A DNA stretch of 52,853 bases from Deltaproteobacteria bacterium (GTDB lineage Bacteria > Desulfobacterota > Syntrophia > Syntrophales > UBA2210). Where the stretch lies: assembly GCA_016933215.1 (NCBI GenBank), contig JAFGBH010000008.1, positions 1-52,853 on the forward strand, given 5' to 3'. Both the position numbers and the translations under genes were made by a program. The notes under the pieces were generated by a model that saw only the letters and a list, made by a program, of their open reading frames with translations, searched no databases and was not told where the DNA came from. Below, piece by piece: positions 18,149-48,305 of the stretch (its first letter is position 1; every line of letters starts with the position of its first letter).

Positions 18149-19639
18149 ATGCCGGATTATGATGTCATTGTTATCGGTGCAGGCAACGGCGGCCTGACCG
18201 CTTCTGCCAGTCTGGCAAAGCGCGGCGCAAAGGTCCTGTTGCTGGAACGTCACAATTTACCCGGCGGGTGCGCCACGAGTTTTATCCGCGGCCGTTTTGA
18301 GTTCGAGGTGGCCCTGCACCAGCTGAGTGGACTGGGAACCCCAGAACAGCCGGGGCCATTGCGAGGGCTTCTGGGCCAGCTCGCCGTACTCGACAAGATC
18401 GAATTTACCGAGGAAGACACACTCTACCGGACAATGGTTCCGGGCGAGTTCGAGGTGACACTCAAGGCGGACAGGACCGAGATAATCGCCGCCCTGAAGG
18501 AAAAATTTCCCGACGAGGCCGACGCGATCGACAAATTTTTCGATCTGGTCTGGGAATTCTGCATGCAGATGGTTTCTATCTTCTTCATGAGAGACCCTGA
18601 AGCATCGCGGGAAAAATACCCCATCTACTGCAAGTATGCCATTAAGTCATCGAAGGAAGTTCTCGATGATTATTTCAAAAGCCCCTTCCTCAAACTGGCA
18701 ATTGCTTCATACTGGGGATACGTGGGGCTTCCTCCGTCACGCCTTACCTTTATGGATATGGCAATGCTCCTTTGGGCCTACACCGAATTCAAGCCCTTCC
18801 ATATCAAGGGCGGCTCCCAGGCCCTCTCAAACGCCATCCTGGATACCTTTATCAAGGCAGGAGGCTATCCTCGCTTCAACTGCGGCGCAAAAAAGATTAT
18901 CATCTCAGACGGCAAGGTAAAAGGTGTGATTACGGAAACGGGTGAGGAGATCACCTGTGACTACGTCGTCTCAAACGCGAGCACGATCAGTACCTACATG
19001 GAAATGCTCGATGAAAAATACGTGCCCGATGATAAATTGAAAATGCTCGGTTCTCGATCCGTGGGGCCGTCAGGTTTCACCATCTATTGCGGTCTCGACT
19101 GCGAGCCCCAGGATCTCGGAATCGATGTCAGCACGCAGTTCATATCCCTCAATACCGACATAGAGCGTCAGTTCGCATCCTGGCGCACCTTTGACAGGCC
19201 CGAAATGTGCGGAATGAGCTGCTACGATGTGGCCGATCCCGATTTCTCACCTGCCGGGGCCTGCCAGGTTGCCGTTATCAACCTCCAGTTTGCCGATCAC
19301 TGGCTTACGATACCTCCGTCACAATACGCGGATGTAAAGTATCGCTATGCACAGGCTCTCCTCGATATCGTCGAAAAGGTCTACCCCGGATTCGGTGACG
19401 CCCTGGAAGAGGTCGACGTATCGTCGCCGATTACCCATCTCCGGTATCTCGGACACCCCGGTGGAGGATTCTACGGATTTGAGAAGTTCGCAAAGGATTC
19501 GAATCTCTTTATTCCCCCGACCTCGGGTATCGATGGGCTCTACTTCGCAGGGGCCTGGGCGGGCATGGCGGGATTCCAGCCCACGCTTGAATCGGGAGTC
19601 TCCGCGGCCAAGGCAATTTACCGGAAAATGAACAAGTGA
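18149..19639 (+). CDS. CrtI-like FAD-dependent oxidoreductase
   Basis: The 496-residue protein belongs to the phytoene desaturase / carotenoid-retinoid oxidoreductase superfamily. The N-terminal dinucleotide-binding motif is VIVIGAGNGGLTASASLAKRG (near residues 5-25) with the acidic strand end LLLERHNLPGG, and the C-terminal FAD-contact motif is GLYFAGAWAGMAGFQPTLESG. No carotenoid genes are nearby. It is directly followed after 9 bp by a ferredoxin-type reductase, which suggests a two-component redox enzyme in which the reductase feeds or drains electrons. Substrate unknown; a carotenoid role is not supported. AGGAGGAAG precedes the ATG. Confidence 0.85.
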   Translation: MPDYDVIVIGAGNGGLTASASLAKRGAKVLLLERHNLPGGCATSFIRGRFEFEVALHQLSGLGTPEQPGPLRGLLGQLAVLDKIEFTEEDTLYRTMVPGEFEVTLKADRTEIIAALKEKFPDEADAIDKFFDLVWEFCMQMVSIFFMRDPEASREKYPIYCKYAIKSSKEVLDDYFKSPFLKLAIASYWGYVGLPPSRLTFMDMAMLLWAYTEFKPFHIKGGSQALSNAILDTFIKAGGYPRFNCGAKKIIISDGKVKGVITETGEEITCDYVVSNASTISTYMEMLDEKYVPDDKLKMLGSRSVGPSGFTIYCGLDCEPQDLGIDVSTQFISLNTDIERQFASWRTFDRPEMCGMSCYDVADPDFSPAGACQVAVINLQFADHWLTIPPSQYADVKYRYAQALLDIVEKVYPGFGDALEEVDVSSPITHLRYLGHPGGGFYGFEKFAKDSNLFIPPTSGIDGLYFAGAWAGMAGFQPTLESGVSAAKAIYRKMNK

Positions 19640-45150: not shown

Positions 45151-45261
45151 TGATTTTTATCATTGAAAGAAATAGGACCGGGCTCCGAAACACTTTCGAT
45201 ATTTCAGACTCGCAGATTCGGTAGCACCCATCCTTTCTTTAACTCATCGGGAACTCCCAGA

Positions 45262-45305
45262 TAAAAAAAGTGGGTGGTCGACAATGTATCATCGACCACC
45301 CACTT
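45262..45305 (-). terminator. Rho-independent terminator ending the minus-strand hairpin RNA
   Basis: AAGTGGGTGGTCGA (45305-45292, minus) pairs with TCGACCACCCACTT (45281-45268) over 14 perfect bp around a 10-nt loop, followed on the minus strand by a T-run (TTTTTTTAT counting the last stem bases). In the plus direction no T-run follows, so the transcript reads right to left. Confidence 0.88.
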
Positions 45306-45512
45306 GCAATATAAAAACTGAGAGGCACATACTTTCCACCCCTCTCAGATTCACGGGGGGGTCGGCGGATGGAAAGGAGGGAACCGAAAACCATCCGCCG
45401 ACTTGTATAAATCAAGAGAGACTGACTAATCTCTCAATCTCCCAGATTTAATCGTTCTGTGCTGGTGGGTGGAAAGGAGGGAACTTTCAAAAAACCACCC
45501 ACCAACCAACAG
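45262..45512 (-). ncRNA. Candidate regulatory RNA: tandem hairpins with anti-Shine-Dalgarno loops
   Basis: On the minus strand, in order: hairpin D, TGGTGGGTGG/CCACCCACCA (arms 45504-45495 and 45472-45463, 22-nt loop); a 6-bp GAGAGA/TCTCTC hairpin; hairpin C, GTCGGCGGATGG/CCATCCGCCGAC (45402-45391 and 45372-45361, 18-nt loop); hairpin B, CTGAGAGG/CCTCTCAG (45348-45341 and 45325-45318, 15-nt loop); then the terminator hairpin. D and C have unrelated stems yet share the loop core GTTCCCTCCTTT, running into the stem as CC. CCTCCTTTC within it equals the anti-Shine-Dalgarno of the common bacterial 16S 3' end. Hairpin B exposes GGTGGAAAG, complementary to CTTTCCACC of hairpin D, so the elements can pair with each other. 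Stem co-variation with loop conservation inside one molecule supports function. Position suggests it is the 3' part of the small-ORF transcript. Confidence 0.65.
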
Positions 45513-45731
45513 TTACTGCTCTAAATCCAAATCAGAGAGAAAAAAATCATTACTCAAGTCTTTCCCCTCATCTCTTTTTTCTTTGGAACCTCGCTTCAGA
45601 TCAACCTTTTCACTACCCTGTTCCGAGAAAAGACTTGCTTCGCTGGTAGCAGTATCAGCATTCGATTTTAAAGGATCTATCTTCGTGCCTTCATGTATCT
45701 CTTTGTCTATAGATTCTATCCTCTTTTTCAT
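45513..45731 (-). CDS. Possible small protein (72 residues) upstream of the hairpin RNA; may be a broken gene
   Basis: The frame starts MKKRIESIDKEIHEGTKIDP and ends DFFLSDLDLEQ. It is highly charged and without cysteine, signal or membrane segment. There is no clear ribosome-binding site before the ATG. The same frame continues upstream for about 21 codons of protein-like sequence (IEPEIYERFYASLL) until a TAA, with no usable start. Another frame just ahead opens at an ATG (45838), which suggests a single frameshift near 45790 may have split a longer ORF of about 108 residues. It lies inside the transcript predicted from the promoter at 45855-45883. Not a recognised family. Confidence 0.4.
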   Translation of the reverse strand: MKKRIESIDKEIHEGTKIDPLKSNADTATSEASLFSEQGSEKVDLKRGSKEKRDEGKDLSNDFFLSDLDLEQ

Positions 45732-45854
45732 AAGAAGTGAGGCATAAAACCTTTCGTAAATTTCTGGTTCAATATGCTTATAAAGAACATCAATTTATTA
45801 AGCAAAATAGATGCCAAACAGCCTCTTTCAGGAAACATCAAATAATTGGTAAAT

Positions 45855-45883
45855 AATATATCAATAATAATAGAGAGTTACAA
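45855..45883 (-). promoter_or_regulatory. Promoter of the small-ORF/hairpin RNA transcript
   Basis: On the minus strand TTGTAA (45883-45878, 4/6) is followed after exactly 17 bp by TATATT (45860-45855, 5/6). The predicted start near 45848 would give a transcript of about 590 nt ending at the terminator at 45262. Confidence 0.55.
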
Positions 45884-46154
45884 GGACCAATTGAGAAGGT
45901 ATTTATTTCGGGGCATAGTAATTTTCATTGAGTGACCATTATGGGGGCAGGATATCGCCTCCATACGTGCGATATCCGCACTTTATAAGCGATATGGCCT
46001 GAAAGCCAAGAATATCACCTAAATCAGGAAGTGTGCTAATCGTGAACATTACGTTTGATAATCGCACAATCGGTACGTATAACACGGGGTTTTTCGTCCG
46101 ATCATCATCGTATTAAATATCCCTGAGGCCTTGTCGCGGGAAATGTGTTAACTG
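45884..46154. other. Non-coding stretch with inverted GCGATAT sites
   Basis: GGATATCGC (45950-45958) and GCGATATCC (45969-45977) are a perfect 9-bp inverted repeat around a 10-nt spacer. A third GCGATAT follows at 45989-45995. They lie about 70-115 bp upstream of the predicted transcript promoter, the position expected for an activator or other operator site. No gene seen in this stretch. Confidence 0.4.
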
Positions 46155-46228
46155 CTGAACCTCCCCGTAATCCCGTATATGCGGGATTACGGAAAATGTT
46201 ATTTTTTATTCGCTCGCTGTTCAGTTCA
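46155..46228 (+). repeat. Dispersed repeat, short form (copy 6), overlapping a gene end
   Basis: It begins CTGAACCTCCCCG, contains hairpin AATCCCG/CGGGATT and the TTATTTTTTATTCGCTCGCT spacer, then jumps to GTTCAGTTCA. Hairpin 2 is missing. Its last bases encode the final residues and stop codon of the minus-strand sigma-54 activator (AAC TGA). Confidence 0.8.
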
Positions 46229-48305
46229 GTTCGAGCTTTTTAAGCTCGCGGATCAATGCATAGCGAGAGATCCCCAGCTTCTTTGCCGCCGCTGTCTTAT
46301 TCCCCTTGCTCAGTTCAAGGACCTTTGAAAGAACGCGGTTCCTGAATGTATTGGTAACACTGTTTATCAGCACCTTATAATCGACCGGGTAGGCAGAGTC
46401 CAGAGATATAGAATCATCCAGCTGCATGCCGATAGAATTCTTCGGTGTTTCTTCAATAATCTCTGCCGGCAGGTTATCTGGTTTTATGACTCCCCGCACG
46501 TTCTGCATTATCATGACACGTTCAATTATATTTTTGAGTTCGCGCACATTCCCCGGCCAGGAATACTGCTTCAGGATCTCTTCCGATTTTTCAGAGAAGC
46601 CCTTGACTTTCTTGTTAAACTTATTATTGAACTCTTCTATGTAATGGTAGGCAAGTATTATAGCATCCTCTCCCCTCTCCCTGAGCGGGGGTATGCTGAT
46701 GGGAACGACACTTATTCTGTAGAACAGATCCTCCCGAAAGGCTCCCTCAGCCACCATGCGGCTAAGGTCCCTGTTCGTCGAGAATATAAAACGCACATTT
46801 ATGGGAATGTTATCGGTACCACCCAGTCTCCGGATATATCCGTCTTCCAGCATTCGAAGGAACTTCGCCTGAATGGAGAGATTCATTTCGCCAATCTCAT
46901 CCAGGAGTATTGTCCCGCCGCTTGCATATTCGAGAAGACCGAGTTTCCTCTTTCTCGCATCCGTGAAGGCACCCGCCTCATAACCGAAGAGTTCGCTTTC
47001 GAGAAGTGTCCCCGGTATGGCCGCACAGTTTACATCGACAAAATGCTTTGATTTTCTGTTGCTCTGCCTGTGGATTGCCCTAGCAATCAGCTCCTTTCCT
47101 GTGCCGCTTTCACCCTGGACCAGTATGCTCGTATCATGTCCCGCAACCTCCCTGATAATGCGAAATATTTCCTTCATCTTTGCTGAATGGCCCACAATGT
47201 CATGGAAACCCAGAATCTTGTCCTCCCTCTCCTTGAGTGTCTCCACTTCCGTTTTCAGGGACTTTGCCTCCAGGGAAAGCATGGAATGCATAATGGCGCT
47301 GTCGTAGGATGCTGCCGCATTTATCACAAGGATATCGAGAATATTCTTCTGATCCCGTGTAAAGGCGACCCCCTTTTTACCGAGACAGAGAACACCCTTA
47401 AACTTGTCCCTGATCTTGAGAGGAATGGCTATTTCAATGGGGTAGTCATCAAATACTGGCATTACCTTATTGTTCTGCACAGCGTCTCTCACGACGATTG
47501 TATCTTTTTCAAAGGCCTTTTCTATAATGCTCCCCTTCATCTTTGAGGAATACTTGTTTTCCTCATCAACAAAAGTCTCTCTCCCGTCACTGATGAGGAA
47601 TTTGTCCTTCTCGGTGTCGATAAAATAGAGGAGCGCTCTTTCTGCCTTTCCTATCTTCAGTGAACTGTCTATGACAATCTCATGCATCCTGTCCAGTGTA
47701 TCGCAGGTATTGAGCTGGGAACCCGCCTCCTGCAACCGTAAGAGCATCTTTATCTTGTCTCTATTATCCTCAAAGAGCCCTGCGCTGTGGATAACTACGC
47801 TTATCTGATTGGCAAAGGTAAGAAGGATGTTGATAGCCTCCGGTGAAAACTTACTTTTTTCCCTTGACCAGAGTGAGATCATACCGGCGGCCTCGTCTTC
47901 TACCTGAAGAGCCGCATAAAAAGTCGATCCCCGCTTGTACATCTTTGATATCTTCCTGTCCGTTTCCGTTACCCTGGGATCCTTCTCCGAATCCTCAAGG
48001 ACTAAATAGTGTCCGTCCTTCACGACTTTTGTTTCAAAACAATCATGTTTCTTCAGATTCAGGTGTGATGAAAAGGCCCTTTTTACCTCCTCCGGGCTGT
48101 AATTTTTGACGACCTTTGTGACCAGATTCTCTTTTTCATCATCGAGAAGGCATATTATTCCCCGGTCGAACCCCATCGTTTCCACGACTTCATCGAGGAT
48201 ATTCTGGAGGATGTCGTCAACGCTGAGAGGTGCTGTAATAAGGGTACTGATACGGAAGAAACTCTCGAGAAGCCGCTCCGCGGCATATATAGAAGTGAAA
48301 CCCAT
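46221..48305 (-). CDS. GAF-domain sigma-54-dependent transcriptional activator
   Basis: The 694-residue protein has two GAF-type sensor domains (about 20-175 and 195-335), a short coiled coil (about 345-365) and an AAA+ domain (about 366-600). Walker A is GESGTGKE (398-405) and Walker B GGTILLDEIG (463-472). The sigma-54 loop reads GAFTDA (445-450) instead of GAFTGA, so the last Gly is Asp. A Fis-type helix-turn-helix ends the protein (KTAAAKKLGISRYALIREL). There is no receiver domain, so activity is probably controlled by a ligand or redox state at the GAF domains. It is FhlA/NorR-like in layout. It stands alone; the targets are unknown. The stop codon lies inside the dispersed repeat. Confidence 0.93.
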   Translation of the reverse strand: MGFTSIYAAERLLESFFRISTLITAPLSVDDILQNILDEVVETMGFDRGIICLLDDEKENLVTKVVKNYSPEEVKRAFSSHLNLKKHDCFETKVVKDGHYLVLEDSEKDPRVTETDRKISKMYKRGSTFYAALQVEDEAAGMISLWSREKSKFSPEAINILLTFANQISVVIHSAGLFEDNRDKIKMLLRLQEAGSQLNTCDTLDRMHEIVIDSSLKIGKAERALLYFIDTEKDKFLISDGRETFVDEENKYSSKMKGSIIEKAFEKDTIVVRDAVQNNKVMPVFDDYPIEIAIPLKIRDKFKGVLCLGKKGVAFTRDQKNILDILVINAAASYDSAIMHSMLSLEAKSLKTEVETLKEREDKILGFHDIVGHSAKMKEIFRIIREVAGHDTSILVQGESGTGKELIARAIHRQSNRKSKHFVDVNCAAIPGTLLESELFGYEAGAFTDARKRKLGLLEYASGGTILLDEIGEMNLSIQAKFLRMLEDGYIRRLGGTDNIPINVRFIFSTNRDLSRMVAEGAFREDLFYRISVVPISIPPLRERGEDAIILAYHYIEEFNNKFNKKVKGFSEKSEEILKQYSWPGNVRELKNIIERVMIMQNVRGVIKPDNLPAEIIEETPKNSIGMQLDDSISLDSAYPVDYKVLINSVTNTFRNRVLSKVLELSKGNKTAAAKKLGISRYALIRELKKLELN

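Follow-up and report, generated by a model that had tools for sequence, protein, structure and literature searches.

In Alphaproteobacteria, the CcaF1/CcsR1-4 and cuckoo RNAs (SmelA075/SmelA099 type) combine an open reading frame (ORF) for a small protein with tandem hairpins that carry anti-Shine-Dalgarno (anti-SD) loops and with an intrinsic terminator (PMC10253847, PMC3927594). According to the accounts available, the Pxr small RNA (sRNA) of Myxococcus xanthus, a host without hfq, forms multiple stem-loops, is located downstream of nla19, the gene of a sigma-54 response regulator, and is served by a sigma-54 promoter (PMC5568312, PMC5684412), and Qrr1 of Vibrio is a sigma-54-dependent sRNA encoded next to luxO, which specifies its AAA+ activator (PMC8043402). 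The sX13 RNA of Xanthomonas, like RNAIII and Helicobacter sRNAs, is described as highly structured and Hfq independent, with C-rich hairpin loops that target G-rich motifs close to start codons (PMC3771888). Here, a minus-strand locus is described from a 52,853-nucleotide (nt) contig of a Syntrophales bacterium (JAFGBH010000008.1; the whole stretch analyzed, referred to as the window), in which a sigma-54 activator gene lies upstream of a predicted short RNA encoding a small protein with FF motifs (the FF protein) and carrying two anti-SD hairpins. The locus is read as a three-part circuit in which an activator-triggered, Hfq-free RNA blocks strong Shine-Dalgarno (SD) sites, with a probability of roughly two-thirds.

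By the features tested, the RNA belongs to none of these groups, although its proposed mode of action resembles that of the CcaF1/CcsR cuckoo RNAs and its wiring that of Pxr or Qrr1. As in the cuckoo group, a small ORF (predicted here to be co-transcribed) accompanies tandem hairpins that share one anti-SD loop and an intrinsic terminator, a resemblance that the first-pass annotation of this DNA had recognized. Its suggestion of a separate system also held. The loop is CCCUCCUUU here and CCUCCUCCC in cuckoo/CcsR RNAs, the FF ORF lacks the DUF1127 domain of their small proteins, a predicted sigma-54 promoter and dedicated activator stand in place of RpoHI/RpoHII, the stem sequence is also conserved, and the host order belongs to the Desulfobacterota rather than the Alphaproteobacteria. 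Features shared with Pxr are the position downstream of a sigma-54 activator gene, a sigma-54 promoter (predicted here), stem-loops and a host without detectable hfq. Pxr, compared by description only, differs in having the response regulator Nla19 where a GAF-domain activator is found here; a small ORF and anti-SD loops are not mentioned in the accounts available, which place Pxr in myxobacteria only. Like Qrr1, the RNA lies beside the gene of its presumed own sigma-54 AAA+ activator, whereas the available description of Qrr1 includes no small ORF. Structured RNA, C-rich hairpin loops and proposed Hfq independence are shared with sX13, from which loop sequence, taxon and control differ, and for which the available text describes no co-encoded protein or activator.

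The two hairpins, reported in the first pass as sharing one loop core, do so (TTCCCTCCTTT in both loops) and are real rather than chance structures, forming part of an RNA family that matches no Rfam family. Since the octamer CCTCCTTT was only mildly over-represented in the window (8 observed versus 2.9 expected), the case for the hairpins rests on conservation. Of the 41 genomes covered by a DNA search of 40 relatives, 27 contained the hairpin, and a scan of 84,980 species genomes with the hairpin pattern matched 35 stretches. All but two of their titles named Deltaproteobacteria, Syntrophaceae, Syntrophales or Syntrophobacterales (one gave Proteobacteria only and one Clostridia), which identified Syntrophales as the host group. 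The covariance-model search proposed in the first pass used 41 hairpins, seeded on those with CCTCCTT, and matched 86 of 155 Syntrophales genomes and 42 of 53 genera, with conserved loops; the genome library searched contains no other order of this class. Outside the order, an even phylum sample gave just four weak matches (L093 to L096; E values, 2e-5 to 9e-4). Neither these nor the Clostridia pattern match (L041), which the model did not confirm, were convincing as members. At the gathering score, Rfam matches in the window were limited to one tRNA, a lax search of positions 45200 to 46230 against Rfam 15 returned no bacterial family even at an E value of ≤1, and no description of this RNA was found in the literature searches made. 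Family f14 (about 50 genomes) almost wholly lacks the hairpin RNA, and an activator ortholog was not found in the ten genomes searched individually, which suggests either loss of the whole circuit or its later origin.

Covariation of the stems around an invariant loop, proposed as a check in the first pass, was evident: 7 of 12 stem base pairs had changed on both sides (71 compensated cells versus 20 in shuffles) and the loop core CC.CCTTT was nearly invariant across hairpins. The stems had been taken as unrelated, but both are versions of one pattern, (C)CGGYGGRTGG...CCAYCCRCCG. G-U wobbles numbered 22 on the CCTCC strand and 11 on the opposite strand, and hairpin 2 scored 65.9 bits on the former versus 28.0 on the latter, which together identify the CCTCC strand as the RNA. 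A CsrA-like reading of the opposite strand, with a GGA loop, was rejected on the same figures. Despite the CCTCCTT seeding, the loop was kept at syntenic positions in 74 of 75 activator-bearing genomes. Most loci carry two hairpins 81 to 106 nt apart, and the consensus layout of 22 two-hairpin loci across families consists of an anti-SD hairpin, usually a C-run, a middle stem (RTCTGARAGG...CCTTTCAG) and a second anti-SD hairpin with T-runs; the T-runs indicate that the second hairpin doubles as a terminator whose loop holds the anti-SD. The window carries a variant in which the two anti-SD hairpins are followed by a separate terminator, as drawn in the first pass. This terminator has a stem similar to the anti-SD stems and a loop without the core, and probably originated as a third hairpin from which the core has been lost. 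The fold energy of the window RNA was -116.5 kcal/mol versus -71 for shuffles (z = -9.8).

Across the family the loop is fixed and of the UUCCCUCCUUU type, and its bases CCUCCUUU are exposed in predicted folded transcripts (median unpaired probability, 0.95). The sole full-length 16S rRNA found from the same order, in G027, ends in GGAUCACCUCCUUUCU; the CCUCCUUUC of the loop therefore matches the anti-SD exactly. A GGATCACCTCCTTT match in G146 was also considered as a 16S 3' end and was shown not to be one.

FF proteins are encoded at 41 loci and comprise 50 to 86 amino acids (aa), rich in E, K, S and D, with one or two FF(L/I/V)(S/P/T) motifs, typically EYEFF(L/I)S in mid-protein and FFLPD or FFLSD at the C terminus. 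Their composition appears disordered and their sequences diverge. Of 13 measurable pairs, 12 gave ratios of nonsynonymous to synonymous substitution (dN/dS) of 0.13 to 0.44 and one gave 0.87, and third codon positions change most, which indicates that the ORF is translated. Judged by these substitution patterns, the small ORF that the first pass had placed upstream of the hairpins is coding and under purifying selection. The window FF ORF had no significant Pfam match (sub-threshold Synaptobrevin only), and NCBIfam gave none for the four small FF proteins tested. An SD sequence was missing before 33 of 41 FF starts, compared with 64 of 286 sampled genes of a relative (p = 6e-13), consistent with the FF ORF being exempt from the action of the RNA that carries it.

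In most loci the FF ORF is located 6 to 42 nt upstream of hairpin 1. Together with the selection on the ORF and the second hairpin serving as terminator in many loci, this arrangement is what would be expected if the conserved element were the mere 3' end of the FF mRNA, providing termination or stability, with the protein as the effector and loops that do not act in trans. This is improbable, since hairpins and loop are kept at five loci with no detectable FF ORF (L003, L005, L006, L008 and L013) and at the unlinked paralogs L101, L103 and L128, and neither a terminator nor a stabilizer needs a fixed loop sequence. Hairpins were likewise kept in genus g2, where the FF ORF was not found, making the hairpins the more conserved part. 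In L003 and L005 (about 1360 to 1460), from one family without the FF ORF, the interval from the sigma-54 promoter to the hairpin instead contains a conserved inverted repeat (GAGACCTT...AAGGTCTC).

An activator ortholog lies upstream of the hairpins on the same strand in nearly all orthologous loci, and the other flank is usually occupied by a convergent ychF or hppA. Among the 155 genomes, hairpins occurred in 74 of 75 with the activator and in 12 of 80 without it (Fisher p = 4e-30); in the sole activator genome without hairpins, G048, the activator is near a contig end. In 62 of 77 loci, a sigma-54 -24/-12 element scoring ≥17 of 20.5 was located no more than 500 nt upstream, compared with 3 of 77 for the opposite strand as a control, and this element is likely the promoter of the RNA. 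The TTGTAA-17-TATATT sigma-70 promoter drawn in the first pass (45855 to 45883) is probably not used, because the conserved sigma-54 element is interposed between that promoter and the ORF. Upstream of the sigma-54 element, TGTGCG-N5-CGCACA with ≤2 mismatches was present in 54 of 74 loci and in none of 74 shuffled sequences, and is the probable activator binding site. Of 13 perfect copies of this palindrome across the 155 genomes, 10 were at the activator/hairpin locus; the activator therefore appears nearly dedicated to this RNA. The remaining three are an identical 17-mer, TGTGCGCCCTTCGCACA, in two genomes of one genus (G039:C8:73436, G020:C6:201676 and G020:C11:50890) and could possibly represent an extra regulon or a repeat. 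Read from sequence only, the locus has the architecture of a sigma-54-dependent unit, with a -24/-12 promoter, an upstream enhancer and an AAA+ activator. A search for a named domain or structure in the sensor region of the activator gave only weak GAF matches, with no named NCBIfam equivalog at the cutoff.

Activator, enhancer, promoter and ORF are jointly missing from genus g2, yet hairpins are retained there. Some genomes carry 2 to 7 hairpin copies, as could be expected of a dispersed repeat or mobile element inserting by chance near sigma-54 regulators, but such an origin is very hard to reconcile with a single dominant locus, a position conserved between the same neighbors across many families, and an associated promoter and enhancer. 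The palindrome is absent from the majority of paralogous hairpin loci, and many of these loci have another sigma-54 activator (about 35% identical) nearby. Paralogs L103 (1001 to 1350) and L101 of the window's own genome (G000 C15 and C71) have sigma-54-like elements, and no FF ORF was found in them; AAAGGAGG/AAAGGAGA, to which their own loops are complementary, occurs in their upstream transcripts. Genome G101 (a 3,179,300-bp single contig), which we take to be the culturable relative S. aciditrophicus SB, appears to carry the RNA and the FF protein. An insertion element that includes an ORF for a 401-aa transposase (L149 1576 to 2781; C1 about 1,968.1 to 1,969.3 kb) splits its activator gene into ORFs of 522 and 188 aa; the RNA/FF locus is elsewhere in this genome, at 584.2 to 584.7 kb.

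In the proposed circuit, the GAF-AAA+-Fis activator would sense a signal, bind the palindromes in the intergenic region and drive sigma-54 transcription of a single short RNA, which would encode the FF protein and then present two stable hairpins with UUCCCUCCUUU loops. These loops could pair in trans, without Hfq, with strong SD sites (AAAGGAGG type) and block ribosome binding on a subset of mRNAs, a block that the usually SD-less FF start would escape. Transcription, loop-mRNA pairing, repression, its targets, the FF protein as RNA partner and the inducing signal are the steps we infer. None of 15 Syntrophales genomes matched Hfq, whereas positive-control genomes did, which sets the RNA apart from Hfq-dependent sRNAs; pairing would then depend either on loop presentation, as for sX13, or on help from the FF protein, and Syntrophales may rely on Hfq-free RNA regulation. 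In 400 kb of G101, AAGGAGG was found before 15 of 286 genes and AAAGGAGG before 8 of 286 (≤25 nt from the chosen start), so a subset of mRNAs could be affected. Strong SD sites of this type precede window ORFs at 18149, 28159 and 30298. Overall, the locus suggests a purpose-built translation brake in bacteria seemingly without Hfq.

Several observations weigh against this reading. Duplex energies between loops and starts were no better than those of shuffled C-rich loops, and AAAGGAGG precedes only about 3% of the sampled S. aciditrophicus-like genes and AAAGGAGGG none. The 16S rRNA of the window's own genome, with which the first-pass annotation had proposed to compare the loop, was looked for and is not in the assembly, so that the comparison succeeded for the same-order G027 only. 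Stem positions GG.G...GG are invariant beyond the requirements of pairing, which could be a sign of protein recognition. Coupled with the conserved TTTT on the 5' loop side and its adjacent C-run, the tandem copies and the co-encoded small protein, this invariance raises an alternative in which the hairpins serve to bind a protein, perhaps FF or some other RNA-binding protein, which the RNA would titrate or carry in a CsrB-like manner, the anti-SD resemblance being secondary. The alternative is unlikely, although less so than the two considered above: the conserved loop core is exactly the 16S 3' end, the hairpins persist where the FF ORF was not found, and the strand with the GGA loop scores far lower. 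The SD-blocking circuit can also be extended to a dedicated, Hfq-free brake on strong SD sites whose origin in Syntrophales was independent of that of the alphaproteobacterial cuckoo RNAs, with an activator controlling essentially this RNA, lowered output of the best-initiated mRNAs, and FF as its protein partner (an RNA chaperone, processing factor or ribosome/RNase adaptor). This fuller version is tentative, and the odds are somewhat against it.

The features of the window locus are collected in Table 1. The parts drawn in the first pass were found, although that account missed the sigma-54 activator, the enhancer palindrome, the FF family and the role of the second hairpin as terminator in most families. 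The overlap of the MPHFL ORF with the small ORF makes it a possible translational coupling leader.

Table 1. Predicted features of the hairpin RNA locus in the window
Feature	Position	Strand	Basis
Predicted sigma-54 activator gene, 694 aa, GAF-GAF-AAA+ (Sigma54_activat)-Fis-type helix-turn-helix	46221..48305	-	Pfam
Candidate enhancer palindrome GTGCGGATATCGCAC, consensus TGTGCG-N5-CGCACA	45967..45981	-	Locus conservation
Predicted sigma-54 promoter -24/-12, TGGCAT-CTATT-TTGCT	45801..45816	-	Score 19.5 of 20.5
5-codon ORF MPHFL, stop overlapping small-ORF start (ATGA)	45728..45745	-	Sequence
Small ORF (FF protein), 72 aa, lysine/glutamate-rich, C-terminal DFFLSD motif	45513..45731	-	Sequence, relatives
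Anti-SD hairpin 1, stem TTGGTGGGTGG/CCACCCACCAG	45462..45505	-	Fold; covariance-model match 58.9 bits
Hairpin 1 loop core TTCCCTCCTTT (anti-SD)	45473..45483	-	Sequence
Middle stem-loop AATCTGGGAGATTGAGAG...CTCTCTTGATTT, between both anti-SD hairpins; same middle stem as in the 22-locus consensus	45409..45448	-	Fold
Anti-SD hairpin 2, stem GTCGGCGGATGG/CCATCCGCCGAC	45361..45402	-	Covariance-model match 65.9 bits, top of all
Hairpin 2 loop core TTCCCTCCTTT (anti-SD)	45373..45383	-	Sequence
C-run immediately 3' of hairpin 2	45355..45360	-	5-8 C in most relatives
Stem-loop CTGAGAGG...CCTCTCAG, 3' of hairpin 2	45318..45348	-	Fold
Intrinsic terminator, stem GTGGGTGG...CCACCCAC + T7	45263..45305	-	Sequence, fold

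If the proposed circuit is correct, the pairing of a small protein with tandem anti-SD hairpins would have evolved at least twice, with different sigma factors, unrelated proteins and different loops. The selectivity of anti-SD loops would become testable, as about 3 to 5% of the genes in the sampled relative carry a full AAGGAGG/AAAGGAGG site. A previously unlisted RNA and tiny protein, found across an order of syntrophic bacteria, would then provide an RNA regulator for an order with none described in the literature searched, in bacteria without detectable Hfq.
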